Source: Thermodesulforhabdaceae bacterium (GTDB taxonomy: Bacteria; Desulfobacterota; Syntrophobacteria; Syntrophobacterales; Thermodesulforhabdaceae). From it: a stretch of 64,000 nt of DNA. The position numbers and the translations under genes are program-made. The notes beneath the pieces are model-generated. The model did no database searches. It saw only the letters and a list, made by a program, of their open reading frames with translations, and had not been told where the DNA came from. Below, piece by piece: positions 24,638 through 51,282 of this stretch (within the stretch, counting starts at the first letter, position 1; each line of letters begins with the position of its first letter). Location: assembly GCA_037482015.1 (NCBI GenBank), contig JBBFKT010000004.1, positions 1-64,000 of the forward strand, written 5' to 3'.

Positions 24638-24972
24638 TGCGCTTGGCATGGGCGTGCTCCTGGAGGTGAAAGTCCTCCCGTGAGTTGATCACAGCGAGCG
24701 AAGGGAAGCGCAACTGCACGAGGGTGACCGAGTGTGGGGAGGAAGCGTGAAACGAAACTGCGAGCCGATGGACAAGAACCGGACCCCTCCCCAGCCCTTC
24801 CCGTCAACGGGGAGGGAGTGCGGAGCAGGGCGAGCGGGCCGAAGTCTGCGAAGCTCTCGTGATCAAGGCGAAGTGGCGTAAATTCGACTCAACTTCTCGA
24901 ACCGCCCGGTGCGGACCCCCATGCCGGGTGGTGTGGGAGGGGATCGGTCAAACTGGCCACCCCTATCCCAAT
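24638..24972 (+). mobile_element. Internally deleted ORF-less group II intron
   Basis: It starts with the intron 5' consensus GTGCGC and domain I-like sequence (GGTGAAAGTCCTCC, GATGGACAAGAACCGG). It ends with the domain V hairpin (CGAACCGCCC...GGGTGGTGTGGG), a domain VI hairpin and CCCTATCCCAAT. At about 335 nt it lacks the maturase and probably parts of domains I-IV. Splicing would need trans-acting help and may be impossible. Boundaries are inferred from consensus only. Confidence 0.65.
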
Positions 24973-42899: not shown

Positions 42900-43253
42900 T
42901 CAGCCGCCATAGCCCAGGTTCTCCAGTTTTTTCAATAGCGCTTCCACCACAGGCTTGAGTGCCGGGACGTCCTTCTGTACTGCCTCCCAGACGATTTCTG
43001 TATCAAGCTCGAAGTAGCCGTGAACCAGGATGTTGCGCATGCCGATGATCTTCGGTCAGGGAATATCCGGCGCTAGCTTTCTCACGTCCTCCGGTAAAGC
43101 ACGGGCGGCCTCGCCGATGATCTGCAGATGTCGGAGAAACCATACCTGTAGCATTTCGTCCTGCTCAAAGGATGCACGATCCCTTTCTCGGTAACGCTCG
43201 ATAGCCGCGATCGCCTGTAAGATGTCCCGAAGTCTTTCTTTGGGGTCTCTCAT
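42900..43253 (-). pseudogene. HepT-type HEPN toxin gene with one opal codon
   Basis: The frame of 118 codons begins [15 protein letters not shown], typical of DUF86/HepT. At 43056 a TGA replaces the conserved Trp of DIPWxKIIGMRN. Beyond it the frame continues intact with the RX4HXY active-site motif (RNILVHGY) and a normal end, so the truncated 65-aa product would lack the RNase site. Its start overlaps the nucleotidyltransferase stop by 4 nt, the usual antitoxin-toxin arrangement. It may be a decayed toxin; sequencing error is the alternative. Confidence 0.8.
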
Positions 43254-43546
43254 ATCGGGACTGCCTCCTTTAGAACCTTTTCCCGAATTCGTCTTTTGAG
43301 ACCACGCTCCGTCACGACATCTACTCGGCATCCTAGGAGTTCCTCTAATTCATACTGAAGCCCTCCTAGGTCAAATAGCGTTCGACCCGACTCCAGCTCC
43401 ACCAAGAAGTCAATGTCACTGCAGGCGTCTGCCTCACCGCGAACCACCGAGCCGAACACCCTCACGTTGCGCGCTCCATACTTGGCGCAGAGGCGCAGGA
43501 TTTCTTCTCGCTTTTCAAGCAGTTGCTCTTCAGGGGTCATACCCAA
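43250..43546 (-). CDS. MntA-type minimal nucleotidyltransferase (antitoxin)
   Basis: A 98-aa protein with the nucleotidyltransferase signature [19 protein letters not shown], giving the GS and DxD residues for NTP transfer. In studied MntA-HepT systems it neutralises the HEPN RNase by adding AMP to its RX4HXY tyrosine. Two ATGs (43546, 43540) could start it. It precedes the broken HEPN gene with a 4-nt overlap. It appears intact although its partner is truncated. Confidence 0.85.
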
Positions 43547-46102: not shown

Positions 46103-46777
46103 TTGGATAAAGAAACGTCTGTTAAAAATCTGGCAAAAGCCCTTGATAGCTTCATTAGAGAAAAAGATTTTATTGAGTCCTTAGCTTGTGGAATGTTGTT
46201 GTTTTTGGAAAGTGAAACTGTCGATTTGGATAGACTGATAAGGGCGGCTGGACCTGATTATTTAGAAGTACTGCTTTTGGCTTTTGAGTGGAAACTTATT
46301 CTTCCTCTTCTTCCATCTAAAACTTGTGCCTGGGAAGACCTGGCTATTGTTGGAATTAGCGCTAAGCTTTATTCAATGCCCAAGGCAGTTTATTACATTA
46401 TTAGACAATCCGCAGAAAAAGGTTTTTGGGATGTAGAAGGTGGGCTAAAGGTTATGTTTAAAACGCTGGATGTGCCGGCTTCTCCCGATAAAATGACAAC
46501 ATTGGTTCAGGAACTTTTTAATCGGGAAAGATTTATGAGTGTCAGCGCTAGGGATATAGATTTGGCTTGCCGAGCGGTGGGATTACCTGGTCTTGCCGAT
46601 CCCGTTATTGCTATTTTCAAAGGTTTTGGAATTATAAGTCCGAAGCTTAGCCATGTAGGAAAGTCAGTGCTTGGGTTGGGGCCTTTGTATGATTTAAACC
46701 CAAGCTTGGGGTGTAAACTAATCGAAGTAACCAATTTCAAAGAGAAGAAGATTCGCTCCAGCCCCATTTTCCGATAA
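46103..46777 (+). CDS. Hypothetical protein, mostly helical
   Basis: A 224-aa protein with no membrane segment or known motif. The start is placed at a TTG 7 nt after GGAAGGAG; the open frame runs back to 46055 but that region lacks a site. The middle ([45 protein letters not shown]) and the final part are Ile/Leu rich. Its 3' end overlaps pcm (opposite strand) by 41 nt. The 204 nt upstream (45899-46102) show no other feature. Confidence 0.55.
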
Positions 46778-47399
46778 GATCTACAAATCTTACTCCTCCA
46801 AGGAAGGATTTTTTAACACCCTCTGGTACTCGTTCCGCAAGCACAAGTTCCTGTGACAGTCTATCACCAACGGGGATTATGAGCCTTCCCCCCATAGCTA
46901 ATTGATCTATAAGAGGTTGAGGTATAGAAGGGGCTGATGCCGATACCAGAATACCATCGAAGGGCGCTTCTTCAGGCCAGCCCAGAGTTCCATCTCCAAC
47001 GCGATATGTGATATTTTTATAACCCAGAGTTTCTAATCTCTTTTGAGCTTTTTCTGCAAGCAAGGGAATTCGTTCAATAGTAAAAACCTTATCAGCAAGT
47101 TCAGCAAGGATAGCTGTCTGGTATCCAGATCCTGTGCCTATTTCCAGCACTTTCTCCTTTCCTTTGAGTCTGAGAGATTCGGTCATGAGTGCCACAATAT
47201 AGGGTTGAGAGATGGTTTGCTTTTCTTCTATTGGAAGAGGATGATCTTCATAGGCTTGAGATTTTAGATGTTCGGGGACGAAAATATGTCGGGGCACTTT
47301 GAGCATTGCCGCAATAACTCGAGGATCCTTTATCCCGCGCCGCATAATCTGAATATCTATCATTCTTTCCCTGGCTTTTTCAAACTCATCTACTGGCAT
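46737..47399 (-). CDS. pcm: Protein-L-isoaspartate O-methyltransferase
   Basis: A 220-aa SAM-dependent repair enzyme that methylates isoaspartyl residues in damaged proteins. It shows [31 protein letters not shown], the SAM motif [18 protein letters not shown] and GGRLIIPVG. The ATG at 47399 follows AAAGGGG and fits the family; a longer frame reaches 47453. Convergent overlap of 41 nt with the hypothetical gene. Confidence 0.93.
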
Positions 47400-47513
47400 C
47401 AGTGATCCCCTTTGGTATTTTTCTTTCAGTGGATACGAAAACGATATTTTCAAAATGCCTTTATGGTGTAGCCTTTTAACCAGTTCTACCGATTCTCCAG
47501 CAAAAACATTATG

Positions 47514-48806
47514 CTACTTAACTTTAATCCATAAAATCTGAGCAGTGCTCTGGCCTATGTTCTTCCATTGAGATGGAATGTCCGAAGAGAGAATTATAGT
47601 ATCGCCTCTAGAAACGGTCTTTACCATGCCTCGCACCACCATCTGCAGCCTGCCTCTAAGCACATAGCCGAGCTCTTCCCCCTTGTGGATAAAAAAGTGA
47701 GCGTTTAGAGTTTTTCCCGGTGGTATTTCTATTAGATAGGGTTCTGCTTTGGAATTAACATCCAGAGGCAAAAGACTATGCACTTCCAGAGCGTCCTCCG
47801 GGAATTCACTCAAGTGGATCTTTATCTTGGATGATTCAGGAAAGACCACTACACCCTGTTCTACAAGGCTTTTGCCGAAGAAGTATCCAACATCAACTCC
47901 GAGAATTTCCGCTATTTTCATAAGAGCAGGAATTGAAGGATAGATACGGTTACTTTCAAGCTGGGAAATTGTGCTTGGTGTAACTCCAATCATCTGGGCA
48001 AGGTCTTTCTGGCTGATGCCTCGTTTCTTCCTGAGTTCGCTAAGACGGGTTCCAAGTTCAATTCTTCTAAAGTCCGCTGAACCTTCTCCTAACCGCACCA
48101 ACCCATCATGTATGATAAAGTAAGTTGGTTTATTTAGGAGCTCGGGGGATCGATCTTCAGCTTTTAGAACAGTCAGCATCATACGGTCTCGATTAAACCC
48201 CAGTTCTATGGCCACCTGAGTAATGTGATTAAGTCTGGCTTTAAGTTTTGTTGAATGAGCAGCTTTGTCAACAATCCAGTAAGCAATGGTGTTTAGCTCA
48301 TAGAGTCTCGGGCAGGCATGCCCGTAGAATTTCAGAACTTCTTCCTCTCCTCCCCATATATCCTGCATGCCTGTAAGGGTTTCAAAAACAAATCGTGTGT
48401 CTACAACGGTGTTTTTGTGAAGCGAAGTAATAACATCAAAAAGGTCTTCAGTAACTTTCGGATTTTCAACTCTAATGATACGGCATGGTAGGTTTATTGT
48501 GTCAGCATAGAAACTCTCGAAAACCTGGGCTTTTTCCCCTTTACCGTTGGTAAAGCAATCAACGATGACCAAATTTTCGCTTTCCACATAATGGCCAAGC
48601 CTGGCAATAAGGTTTTTGGGGGATCGATCAAAACTAACATAGACAACAGGCTTATTTTGTTCCAGAGATGCCTGTATGAAGTTTTCCACAAAGACTCCAC
48701 TAAGTATTCCCGCTTCGTCATACCATATGACGTTATCGCCTATGTAAAGTCCTCCTAGAAGCCGATCGAGATCGCCTACTCCTGAGGATACCTTCTGCCT
48801 CTGCAT
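47514..48806 (-). CDS. Regulator fusing a degenerate KaiC-like domain, XRE HTH and cupin
   Basis: A 430-aa protein of three parts. Residues 1-240 have a RecA/KaiC-like layout (SGVGDLDRLLGG entry, strands VVYVSFD and LVIVDCF). At the Walker A place it reads GDNVIWYDEAG, with no GKT, so ATP binding is doubtful. Residues 252-308 are an XRE helix-turn-helix (LSELRKKRGISQKDLAQMIGVTPSTISQLE). Residues 352-428 are a cupin (HFFIHKGEELGYVLRGRLQM). The start at 48806 follows TGGAG; an upstream ATG at 48860 lacks a site. It lies just downstream of the aldehyde oxidoreductase gene and likely regulates it. Confidence 0.82.
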   Translation of the reverse strand: MQRQKVSSGVGDLDRLLGGLYIGDNVIWYDEAGILSGVFVENFIQASLEQNKPVVYVSFDRSPKNLIARLGHYVESENLVIVDCFTNGKGEKAQVFESFYADTINLPCRIIRVENPKVTEDLFDVITSLHKNTVVDTRFVFETLTGMQDIWGGEEEVLKFYGHACPRLYELNTIAYWIVDKAAHSTKLKARLNHITQVAIELGFNRDRMMLTVLKAEDRSPELLNKPTYFIIHDGLVRLGEGSADFRRIELGTRLSELRKKRGISQKDLAQMIGVTPSTISQLESNRIYPSIPALMKIAEILGVDVGYFFGKSLVEQGVVVFPESSKIKIHLSEFPEDALEVHSLLPLDVNSKAEPYLIEIPPGKTLNAHFFIHKGEELGYVLRGRLQMVVRGMVKTVSRGDTIILSSDIPSQWKNIGQSTAQILWIKVK

Positions 48807-48844
48807 TTCAAAGCTCCAGTGGCAATGGGATTTTTTAGTTCTTT

Positions 48845-48883
48845 GTCCATCCTGAACCATGAATCAACCGGTTCAGGATGGAC
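48845..48883. promoter_or_regulatory. Perfect 14-bp inverted repeat between oxidoreductase and regulator genes
   Basis: GTCCATCCTGAACC and GGTTCAGGATGGAC are separated by 11 nt. It lies between the oxidoreductase stop (48894) and the regulator start (48806). There is no T-tract on the coding strand, so it may be an operator or an RNA stem affecting the regulator's expression. Confidence 0.5.
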
Positions 48884-48893
48884 CTGGATTTTC

Positions 48894-50627
48894 CTAGAAG
48901 TTAAACACCTTGTCTAGCTCTTCATCCGGAACTTGAAATACAGTGTTGTGAGGGGGTAGAGGTTCGGTTCTGAAGAATTTGGGAAGTCTGTCATGTTGAG
49001 GTCCAAAACCTGCTCTTCTGTTAAAGTCGAGCTCCCATCGGAGCACTTGTTTCCCGTATTCTACGAAGTCGTCCTTTGTCCATTTCCAGCCGCAGAATGA
49101 GTTGATCATGTCGATTGCTGCATCGAAAGCCTCAGGTTTATCTAAAATAGCGAAAGCTACGAATAGGCATAATCCAAGTGAGTCGATCGTTGCAGTAGCT
49201 ATTTGAAGGTTTCGCGACAGTTCTACCTGTCCTTCTGGTTTTAGAGGATCAACGAATCCTCCCGATTTAAGTATATTAGCGGTTATGGCGTATCCGGCTG
49301 TATGGTCTGCTCCCATTGGGCTAGTAGCGTAAGTTACTCCGATTCCTTGAGCCGCTCTCGGATCGTAAGCTGGAAAAGCCTGTCCCTTTACCACCGGAAC
49401 TCGATCAACACCGAAGACTTTCGCCGTAACCGCCGCTCCATTTCCGAGGATTCTTCCGAGGTGGGTTCCCTTGCCGATTTCATGAACCAGGTTTATGGCT
49501 CCCTGAGCATCTCCAAAGGGTATCAGTCCGGCTTCCATGGCTATTCCTAACGTTGCGCCTGTTTCTATAGTATCAAGTCCGTAATTATCTTCTAGGAAAT
49601 CCATCATAGCGATGGCATCAAGATCATCGATTCCACAATGTCCTCCATGAGCCCAGACAGTTTCATACTCCGGCTGTTTGGTAAGATAACGACCGTCTTT
49701 GTCATGGTAAATGCCGGAGCATCTTATTACGCAACCTCGATGGCATCCGTGAGTTGGGTTTCCTCCCCGTTCTTTTTCTCTTTTTGCCAGTTCTTCACCG
49801 CTTATCTTTGCGGCTCCCTTGAAGCGTCCTTCACGGAAGTTGTAGGTTGGATAAGCTCCTGCTTCGTCGATGATGGTCGTAAGAACATTAGTCCCATAAG
49901 CTGGAAGTCCTTTGCCCGTAACGGGATGGGCTCTTAGGGCTTCCACCCAGCGGCGGTTTGCATCCTTAAAACCTTCTGGATCTGCCGGTTCGCGCATTTT
50001 CATACCTGTGTCATCAAGTATGATGACTTTAACTCCCTTTGATCCCATTACGGCTCCAACGCCACCTCTACCGCAGTGGCGGGTAGGTCTTAGTTCGGGG
50101 TCTGTGCAGGCTATGGATGCAGCGCTGAGTTTCATCTCGCCAGCAGTGCCAATAGATATGCAGGCAATCTTATCTCCGTATTGAGCTTTGACCTTTTCGA
50201 TGAGGTCGTAATTAGGCAATCCACGCAGGTCATCGGCAGGTTCAACCTTAATGCCGTCTTTATTTATGAATATTTTGTAAAGTTTATCCTGTTGAGGTTT
50301 TCCTTCGAGGACTATAGCAGCATAACCAAGCCGAGCCAAAACTTGAGCGGGTTGTCCTCCAGCGTTGGATTCTTTTATAGTGCCGGTAAGAGGGCTTTTA
50401 CATCCAACCGATATCCTCCCCGTCATGGATCCTGCTGTTCCACTAAGAAGCCCTGGAGCAATAACAAGTTTGTTGTCGGCGCTCAGAGGATGGCAATCCG
50501 GGGGAACTTCCTTGCTGACGATGGCCGATGTGAGGGCTCTTCCTCCAAGTCCAGCATATTCTCCAAGGTCGGTGATTTTAATCTCAGGACCATCTTTGCC
50601 GCTCATGTTGACTCTTAATAACTTCAT
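48894..50627 (-). CDS. aor: Aldehyde:ferredoxin oxidoreductase (tungstopterin type)
   Basis: A 577-aa AOR-family enzyme that oxidises aldehydes to acids with ferredoxin, using a tungsten or molybdenum bis-pterin and one [4Fe-4S] cluster. It shows the N-terminal LGGRALTS segment, cluster cysteines in HGCHRGCVIRC plus a late Cys in DSLGLCLFVAF, and the pterin motif DLDAIAMMDF / ATSPMGADHTAGY. Length fits (about 600 aa). The ATG at 50627 follows GGAGGAAGG. The adjoining regulator and the liv operon hint at amino acid-derived aldehyde use, which is inference. Confidence 0.9.
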   Translation of the reverse strand: MKLLRVNMSGKDGPEIKITDLGEYAGLGGRALTSAIVSKEVPPDCHPLSADNKLVIAPGLLSGTAGSMTGRISVGCKSPLTGTIKESNAGGQPAQVLARLGYAAIVLEGKPQQDKLYKIFINKDGIKVEPADDLRGLPNYDLIEKVKAQYGDKIACISIGTAGEMKLSAASIACTDPELRPTRHCGRGGVGAVMGSKGVKVIILDDTGMKMREPADPEGFKDANRRWVEALRAHPVTGKGLPAYGTNVLTTIIDEAGAYPTYNFREGRFKGAAKISGEELAKREKERGGNPTHGCHRGCVIRCSGIYHDKDGRYLTKQPEYETVWAHGGHCGIDDLDAIAMMDFLEDNYGLDTIETGATLGIAMEAGLIPFGDAQGAINLVHEIGKGTHLGRILGNGAAVTAKVFGVDRVPVVKGQAFPAYDPRAAQGIGVTYATSPMGADHTAGYAITANILKSGGFVDPLKPEGQVELSRNLQIATATIDSLGLCLFVAFAILDKPEAFDAAIDMINSFCGWKWTKDDFVEYGKQVLRWELDFNRRAGFGPQHDRLPKFFRTEPLPPHNTVFQVPDEELDKVFNF

Positions 50628-50666
50628 AACACCTTCCTCCATATAAATCTTGGTTTTTCCAGATGT

Positions 50667-50690
50667 GATGGAAGGTTAACCCATTCCATC
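50667..50690. promoter_or_regulatory. Palindrome upstream of the oxidoreductase start
   Basis: GATGGAA and TTCCATC arms, 24 nt overall with GGTTAACC in the centre, lie about 40 nt upstream of the ATG at 50627. The size suits an XRE-type dimer operator and the downstream regulator is a candidate ligand. Not tested. Confidence 0.4.
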
Positions 50691-50814: not shown

Positions 50815-51282
50815 TTATTCGGTTCCGATCTTTACTGACACATTGGGATCAAAGGCTCTAACTTTCTCCACGAAAGCAAGATCCCATTGTGCTCTCTTGA
50901 AAGTTTTGTAGTTATAAGCCACGATTAGAGCCCAACCCGTTGCCACGATACGATCCTGACGATGGCTGTATATGGCGTAATCTTGCTCTATTTCGGAATC
51001 TCTAATCACCGAAGTTCTGCATCCCACATCAATAGTGTCAGGAAAGCGAAGAGGCTTTAAGTATCGACAGCTTGTCTCGGCAAGAATCGGACCAACTCCG
51101 GTTTCTTCCATGAATTTCATGAACTGGACAGCCTCAAAGTAAGCAATGCGAGCCGATTCAAGATATCTGAAATAGATTACGTTGTTTACATGCTGGAAAG
51201 CGTCCATGTGCCCCCACAGGACTGGAAGAGTTATTTTGAAGGGAAAATCGTTCATTGATACATTGCGCGATTCGCTCCCCAT
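50815..51282 (-). CDS. Hot-dog fold acyl-CoA thioesterase (4HBT type)
   Basis: A 155-aa protein of the 4-hydroxybenzoyl-CoA thioesterase family. It contains WGHMDAFQHVNNVIYFRYLESAR, which holds the catalytic Asp of the family, and a C-terminal WALIVAYNYKTFKRAQW. It probably hydrolyses an acyl-CoA in the cytoplasm. It starts 3 nt after the livF stop, so it is the last gene of the liv transcript and may act on branched-chain acyl-CoA, which is inference. Confidence 0.85.
   Translation of the reverse strand: MGSESRNVSMNDFPFKITLPVLWGHMDAFQHVNNVIYFRYLESARIAYFEAVQFMKFMEETGVGPILAETSCRYLKPLRFPDTIDVGCRTSVIRDSEIEQDYAIYSHRQDRIVATGWALIVAYNYKTFKRAQWDLAFVEKVRAFDPNVSVKIGTE

Follow-up and report, generated by a model that had tools for sequence, protein, structure and literature searches.

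A KaiC-like domain without a P-loop in an XRE-cupin-type protein of Desulfobacterota: a candidate regulator with a genomic link to glutamate metabolism

XRE-cupin regulators, including PuuR, PauR, ErfA and PsdR, consist of an XRE helix-turn-helix (HTH) followed by a C-terminal cupin. Those studied in Pseudomonas act as repressors of metabolic genes next to their own, with the cupin as presumed sensor of a pathway metabolite (PMC7901475). The same HTH–cupin arrangement was found by Foldseek in the Vibrio HTH_3 regulator 1y9q and in HppE, an iron enzyme whose metal site is intact; a KaiC-like domain is present in neither. BzdR is a further XRE protein, in which the XRE domain is joined to a domain of P-loop-kinase fold (shikimate-kinase-like) that acts as the metabolite receptor (PMC3602430).

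The protein described here is encoded in a stretch of 64,000 nucleotides of a Thermodesulforhabdaceae genome (the window). It has the XRE HTH and C-terminal cupin of the XRE-cupins, but carries an additional KaiC-like domain of 240 residues in front; some of its canonical cupin metal ligands are replaced, and one clade of its family has no cupin. With KaiC and the archaeal KaiC-like ATPases PH0284 and SSO2452 it has in common the fold, the SGxxxLD start, the DxFTxG loop and the Walker-B acid, whereas it lacks Walker A and the catalytic glutamate pair, and has a single such domain, joined to one that binds DNA in other proteins of the XRE type. BzdR is similar in outline, but belongs to another fold family, has its own Walker A intact, carries its effector domain at the C-terminus and has no cupin. 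No account of the KaiC-like/XRE/cupin architecture was found in a literature search outside whose reach subscription journals largely lay.

Anatomy of the regulator

The gene and its domains are as follows.

47514..48806, minus strand: KaiC-like/XRE/cupin regulator, 430 amino acids
48087..48806, minus strand: KaiC/RecA-fold domain, residues 1–240, without functional Walker A (PF06745, AlphaFold2, VIA-align, hhalign against intact KaiC domains)
47880..48059, minus strand: XRE helix-turn-helix, about residues 250–309 (Pfam HTH_3, 64.4 bits)
47526..47735, minus strand: cupin domain, about residues 358–427, with the second His of motif 1 and the His of motif 2 replaced (Pfam Cupin_2)

The open reading frame at 47514–48806, as placed in an earlier sequence-only reading, was found to be right. 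An alternative ATG lies upstream at 48860, in an open frame, and would give a form of 448 residues. The start at 48806 is preferred because alignments with homologues begin at about residues 10–24 of the 448-residue form (most at 17–22), because the regulator of the sister species in the genus has the same start position, and because a GGAG Shine-Dalgarno sequence precedes it.

All three domains of the proposed fusion score above their Pfam cut-offs (numbering of the 448-residue form): KaiC (PF06745) at residues 24–163, with 28.0 bits against a cut-off of 26.6; HTH_3 (PF01381) at residues 274–327, with 64.4 bits; and Cupin_2 (PF07883) at residues 376–445, with 44.3 bits. The order of HTH and cupin is that of the XRE-cupin regulators, and Foldseek matched the C-terminal part to HTH-cupin proteins. 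The PuuR equivalog profile NF007408 aligns with residues 267–442 of the 448-residue form, at 67 bits far below its cut-off of 211. In the cupin, aligned by eye, the HxH of motif 1 reads H370-F-F372, an extra histidine (H374) and E378 are kept, and the position of the motif-2 histidine is S412. Because these residues replace canonical histidines, a standard cupin metal site is unlikely, though metal may be bound in another geometry.

An AlphaFold2 model built with 63 sequences had a mean pLDDT of 87.7, a pTM of 0.58 and a weak linker at residues 242–248; thus, confidence is good for each domain by itself but not for how the domains are placed relative to one another. Residues 3–245 superpose on PH0284 (2dr3) with Z 24.9 and an rmsd of 2.4 over 218 residues (VIA-align), and profile comparison with intact KaiC domains of related genomes gave E = 3.4e-8 (hhalign). 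The N-terminal domain belongs to the KaiC/RecA-fold superfamily, and the earlier assignment of residues 1–240 as KaiC-like was confirmed by structure prediction and profile search.

Distribution of the family and its nitrogen-related neighbours

Relatives occur in at least 365 stretches of GTDB genomes in one scan. All 80 relatives listed of these are of deltaproteobacterial or Desulfobacterota type by title (two being titled only Proteobacteria), and the genera among the matches listed include Desulforhabdus, Desulfosarcina, Desulfobacter and Desulfobulbus. No relatives were found in the viral contigs searched. The regulator is usually single per genome. Across 395 genomes from the phylum, a set of 79 homologues was assembled, covering 26 family-level groups. 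In a quickly built tree of the KaiC-like domain, in which long branches lead to the outgroup, the family forms one group against KaiC; the family is of single origin within this sample. Eleven members with only the KaiC-like and XRE domains (L102–L112) form one nested clade (98% SH-aLRT), and since the cupin-less forms all lie there, the cupin was probably lost once, at a later stage. In two deep-branching paralogues (L098 and L099) the GDN motif is altered (SPETVLW), and neither has a glutamate-synthase-like gene as neighbour.

Genes at the family loci were called by a simple homology-weighted picker of open reading frames. The commonest neighbour of the regulator is an FMN glutamate-synthase-like protein of about 530 residues (PF01645), whose gene lies within three genes of the regulator in 42 of 79 loci and 17 of 26 family groups. 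As this gene is nearly always single-copy, and about six positions are available among some 3,500 genes per genome, chance would be estimated to account for well under one of the 79 loci. PF01645 was assigned to 21 of 64 neighbours on the downstream side and to 9 of 60 on the upstream side. The gene is also present in 75 of 79 genomes that have the regulator versus 119 of 316 that do not (Fisher P = 3e-22, uncorrected for kinship). An early clustering had suggested that the main partner was an acyl-CoA ligase or an indolepyruvate oxidoreductase; the Pfam assignments were instead the glutamate-synthase-like protein and Nuo-type subunits.

Other neighbours at the family loci include class-II glutamine amidotransferase (GATase), glutamate dehydrogenase and asparagine synthase, as well as GAF-ANTAR and sigma-54 regulators; a glutamine synthetase of the type in the window's own genome lies close to the regulator in two more loci. 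Within the window's own genus the glutamate-synthase-like gene is not adjacent to the regulator. In the window's genome it lies about 108 kb away on the same contig, next to GOGAT-like genes and to glnA, of which a single copy was found.

The orientation of the glutamate-synthase-like gene to the regulator varies. Since it is most often convergent, this gene is no obvious direct promoter target, and the linkage may reflect shared function only.

A side observation concerns the 5′ regions of this gene across the family, for example at L065, L110 and L141. A hairpin with an A..G.. hexaloop occurs in 32 of 65 non-redundant regions, against 3.5 of 65 expected from shuffles, and several of these hairpins are followed by a terminator-like one. 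Together they look like ANTAR-controlled attenuation, GAF-ANTAR genes being frequent neighbours. With ANTAR-type hairpins in half of its 5′ regions, the glutamate-synthase-like gene seems to have another regulator.

The adjacent tungsten enzyme and the proposed operators

The neighbours of the regulator in the window are the following.

46737..47453, minus strand: protein-L-isoaspartate O-methyltransferase (pcm), downstream neighbour (PF01135)
48894..50642, minus strand: aldehyde:ferredoxin oxidoreductase (AOR), upstream neighbour (PF01314, PF02730)
50815..51282, minus strand: 4HBT-type thioesterase, upstream of AOR (PF13279)

AOR, a good member of the AFOR family and one of two in the genome, lies directly upstream of the regulator, in the same orientation and separated from it by 87 bp; that the two genes are neighbours had been noted from the sequence. 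The regulator could thus be a dedicated local one, responding to an aldehyde or acid and serving an operon of livHMGF, thioesterase, AOR and regulator. This is rather doubtful as an account of the protein, although XRE-cupins usually control their neighbours (PMC7901475) and the adjacency recurs in the sister species (Syntrophobacterales SKW214, L113). In another family, the regulator gene comes after liv genes and an acyl-CoA ligase, a similar catabolic setting, and in two Desulforhabdus-like genomes of another family an AOR orthologue lies 7–9 kb upstream of the regulator on the same strand. However, direct adjacency is confined to the two species of the window's genus, AOR orthologues with 74–78% identity occur in other relatives with no regulator nearby, and the two species show no conservation in the region upstream of AOR. 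Across the 395 genomes co-occurrence is weak (55 of 79 genomes with the regulator versus 169 of 316 others, P = 0.011, uncorrected for kinship).

Thus, the AOR linkage is lineage-specific, and neither the suggested link to AOR across species nor control of the tungsten enzyme as a general role of the family was supported. In the window's genus, local control of AOR is a possible role, and the regulator may have been recruited to the AOR operon there or may merely have moved beside AOR.

Two inverted repeats had been proposed as operators.

48845..48883, no strand: inverted repeat with 14 bp arms, 100% matched, RNA hairpin
50667–50690: inverted repeat with 7 bp arms

Both repeats exist, and their role as operators found no support. 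The first occurs only once in the genome, and the sister species has an unrelated hairpin in its place; it therefore behaves as an RNA hairpin and was rejected as an operator. The stretch 48835–48893 folds as an RNA hairpin with a minimum free energy of -27.3 kcal/mol. A conserved palindromic operator was also sought in the sequences upstream of 134 regulator genes, by enumeration and by an EM search; only A/T-rich or terminator-like motifs emerged.

Elsewhere in the window, two overlapping small open reading frames at 43056–43546 resemble, by eye, an MNT nucleotidyltransferase/HEPN toxin–antitoxin pair, and positions 24718–24837 give a borderline Rfam match to group II intron D1-D4 (32.8 bits, cut-off 32).

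A probably remodelled nucleotide pocket and a possible role

Two segments of the KaiC-like domain mark the positions of the loops compared here.

48696..48719, minus strand: P-loop equivalent DEAGILSG, residues 30–37, replacing GxxGxGKT
48537..48560, minus strand: loop DCFTNGKG, residues 83–90, aligned with DAFTAGIG of the archaeal KaiC-like PH0284

The absence of GxxGxGKT in the window protein, where the equivalent loop is YDEAGILSGV, had been recognized before and extends to the whole family. The pattern GxxxxGK[S/T] was found at the P-loop site in none of 79 homologues (26 family-level groups), nor did any of the 63 sequences in a second alignment have it there; the single match among the 79 lies in one protein, in a stretch that extends its N-terminus; in many members the P-loop equivalent carries acidic residues. 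In the profile alignment, the catalytic glutamate pair of KaiC after the second core strand is also replaced (FDRSP versus FEE(R/S)); most relatives share the FDR of the window protein at this position. The Walker-B position is still Asp or Glu. Judging from these alignments, the domain is family-wide one without the Walker-A Lys/Thr and the catalytic glutamate pair.

Across 26 diverse members, 18 columns of the domain are invariant: G9, D14, V26, W28, F39, D83, F85, G88, K89, T145, G146, W151, L168, Y176, W177, H184, L202 and R219. Many lie in loops after the strands at residues 25–30, 79–83, 138–142, 174–180 and 208–216 (secondary structure of the model), and D83, F85, G88, K89, T145, G146, H184 and R219 would be at or just behind strand ends, as judged from sequence position. 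KaiC and RecA folds bind nucleotide at the C-terminal ends of the beta strands. That many invariant residues fall on the side used by KaiC for nucleotide argues for a reused pocket; thus, the former ATP pocket has probably been put to another use. The earlier proposal of a ligand- or protein-sensing module is in this part consistent with a KaiC fold that lacks the P-loop, is fused to XRE and cupin, is conserved across the phylum, and has invariant residues on the side where nucleotide was formerly bound; the part that assigned it to the tungsten enzyme was not supported in general.

Perhaps the domain still binds nucleotide in a non-canonical way, for which the invariant Lys of FTxGKG, Arg219 and, in close relatives, the Arg of FDRSP are candidates; the protein would then sense energy charge. 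The invariance of K89 and R219, the retained Walker-B acid and the DxFTxG loop common to archaeal KaiC-like ATPases would suit such a role; the loss of the P-loop Lys/Thr everywhere, the acidic residues in many P-loop equivalents and the missing catalytic glutamate pair make it unlikely. That the domain is a structural oligomerisation platform only, a ring former without ligand, is quite improbable, since the strong invariance is at the former active-site face and not spread generally, although the fold is KaiC-like and KaiC forms hexamers.

The preferred reading, with a probability of about 0.5, is that the protein is a transcription regulator of XRE-cupin type with an N-terminal pseudo-KaiC module for sensing and oligomerisation, and with an ancestral tie to nitrogen assimilation. 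Each step that we infer beyond the anatomy and the genomic link follows the logic of the XRE-cupins and BzdR. The XRE domain would bind DNA, and regulation would be local and, by analogy with the Pseudomonas XRE-cupins studied, most likely by repression. The cupin, the remodelled KaiC pocket or both would sense a small molecule of nitrogen or amino-acid metabolism, the KaiC-like domain serving as sensor and oligomerisation platform rather than as a canonical ATPase. Targets would lie in glutamate/ammonia metabolism family-wide and possibly include AOR in the window's genus. More tentatively, in this phylum-wide family a clock-type KaiC domain may have lost ATP binding and become a receptor for a metabolite of nitrogen status, so that glutamate/glutamine synthesis, and in one genus a tungsten enzyme as well, would be coupled to this signal.

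Recruitment of dead enzyme domains as sensors is a known route to new regulators, as for BzdR. For the KaiC fold, we know of no such case. Here, a putative pseudo-KaiC regulator is conserved across a phylum, and its genomic partner, a gene of glutamate/ammonia metabolism, is clear. The phylum is dominated by sulfate reducers and syntrophs, in which the regulation of this metabolism has, to our knowledge, been little studied; the family provides a named candidate regulator for it.
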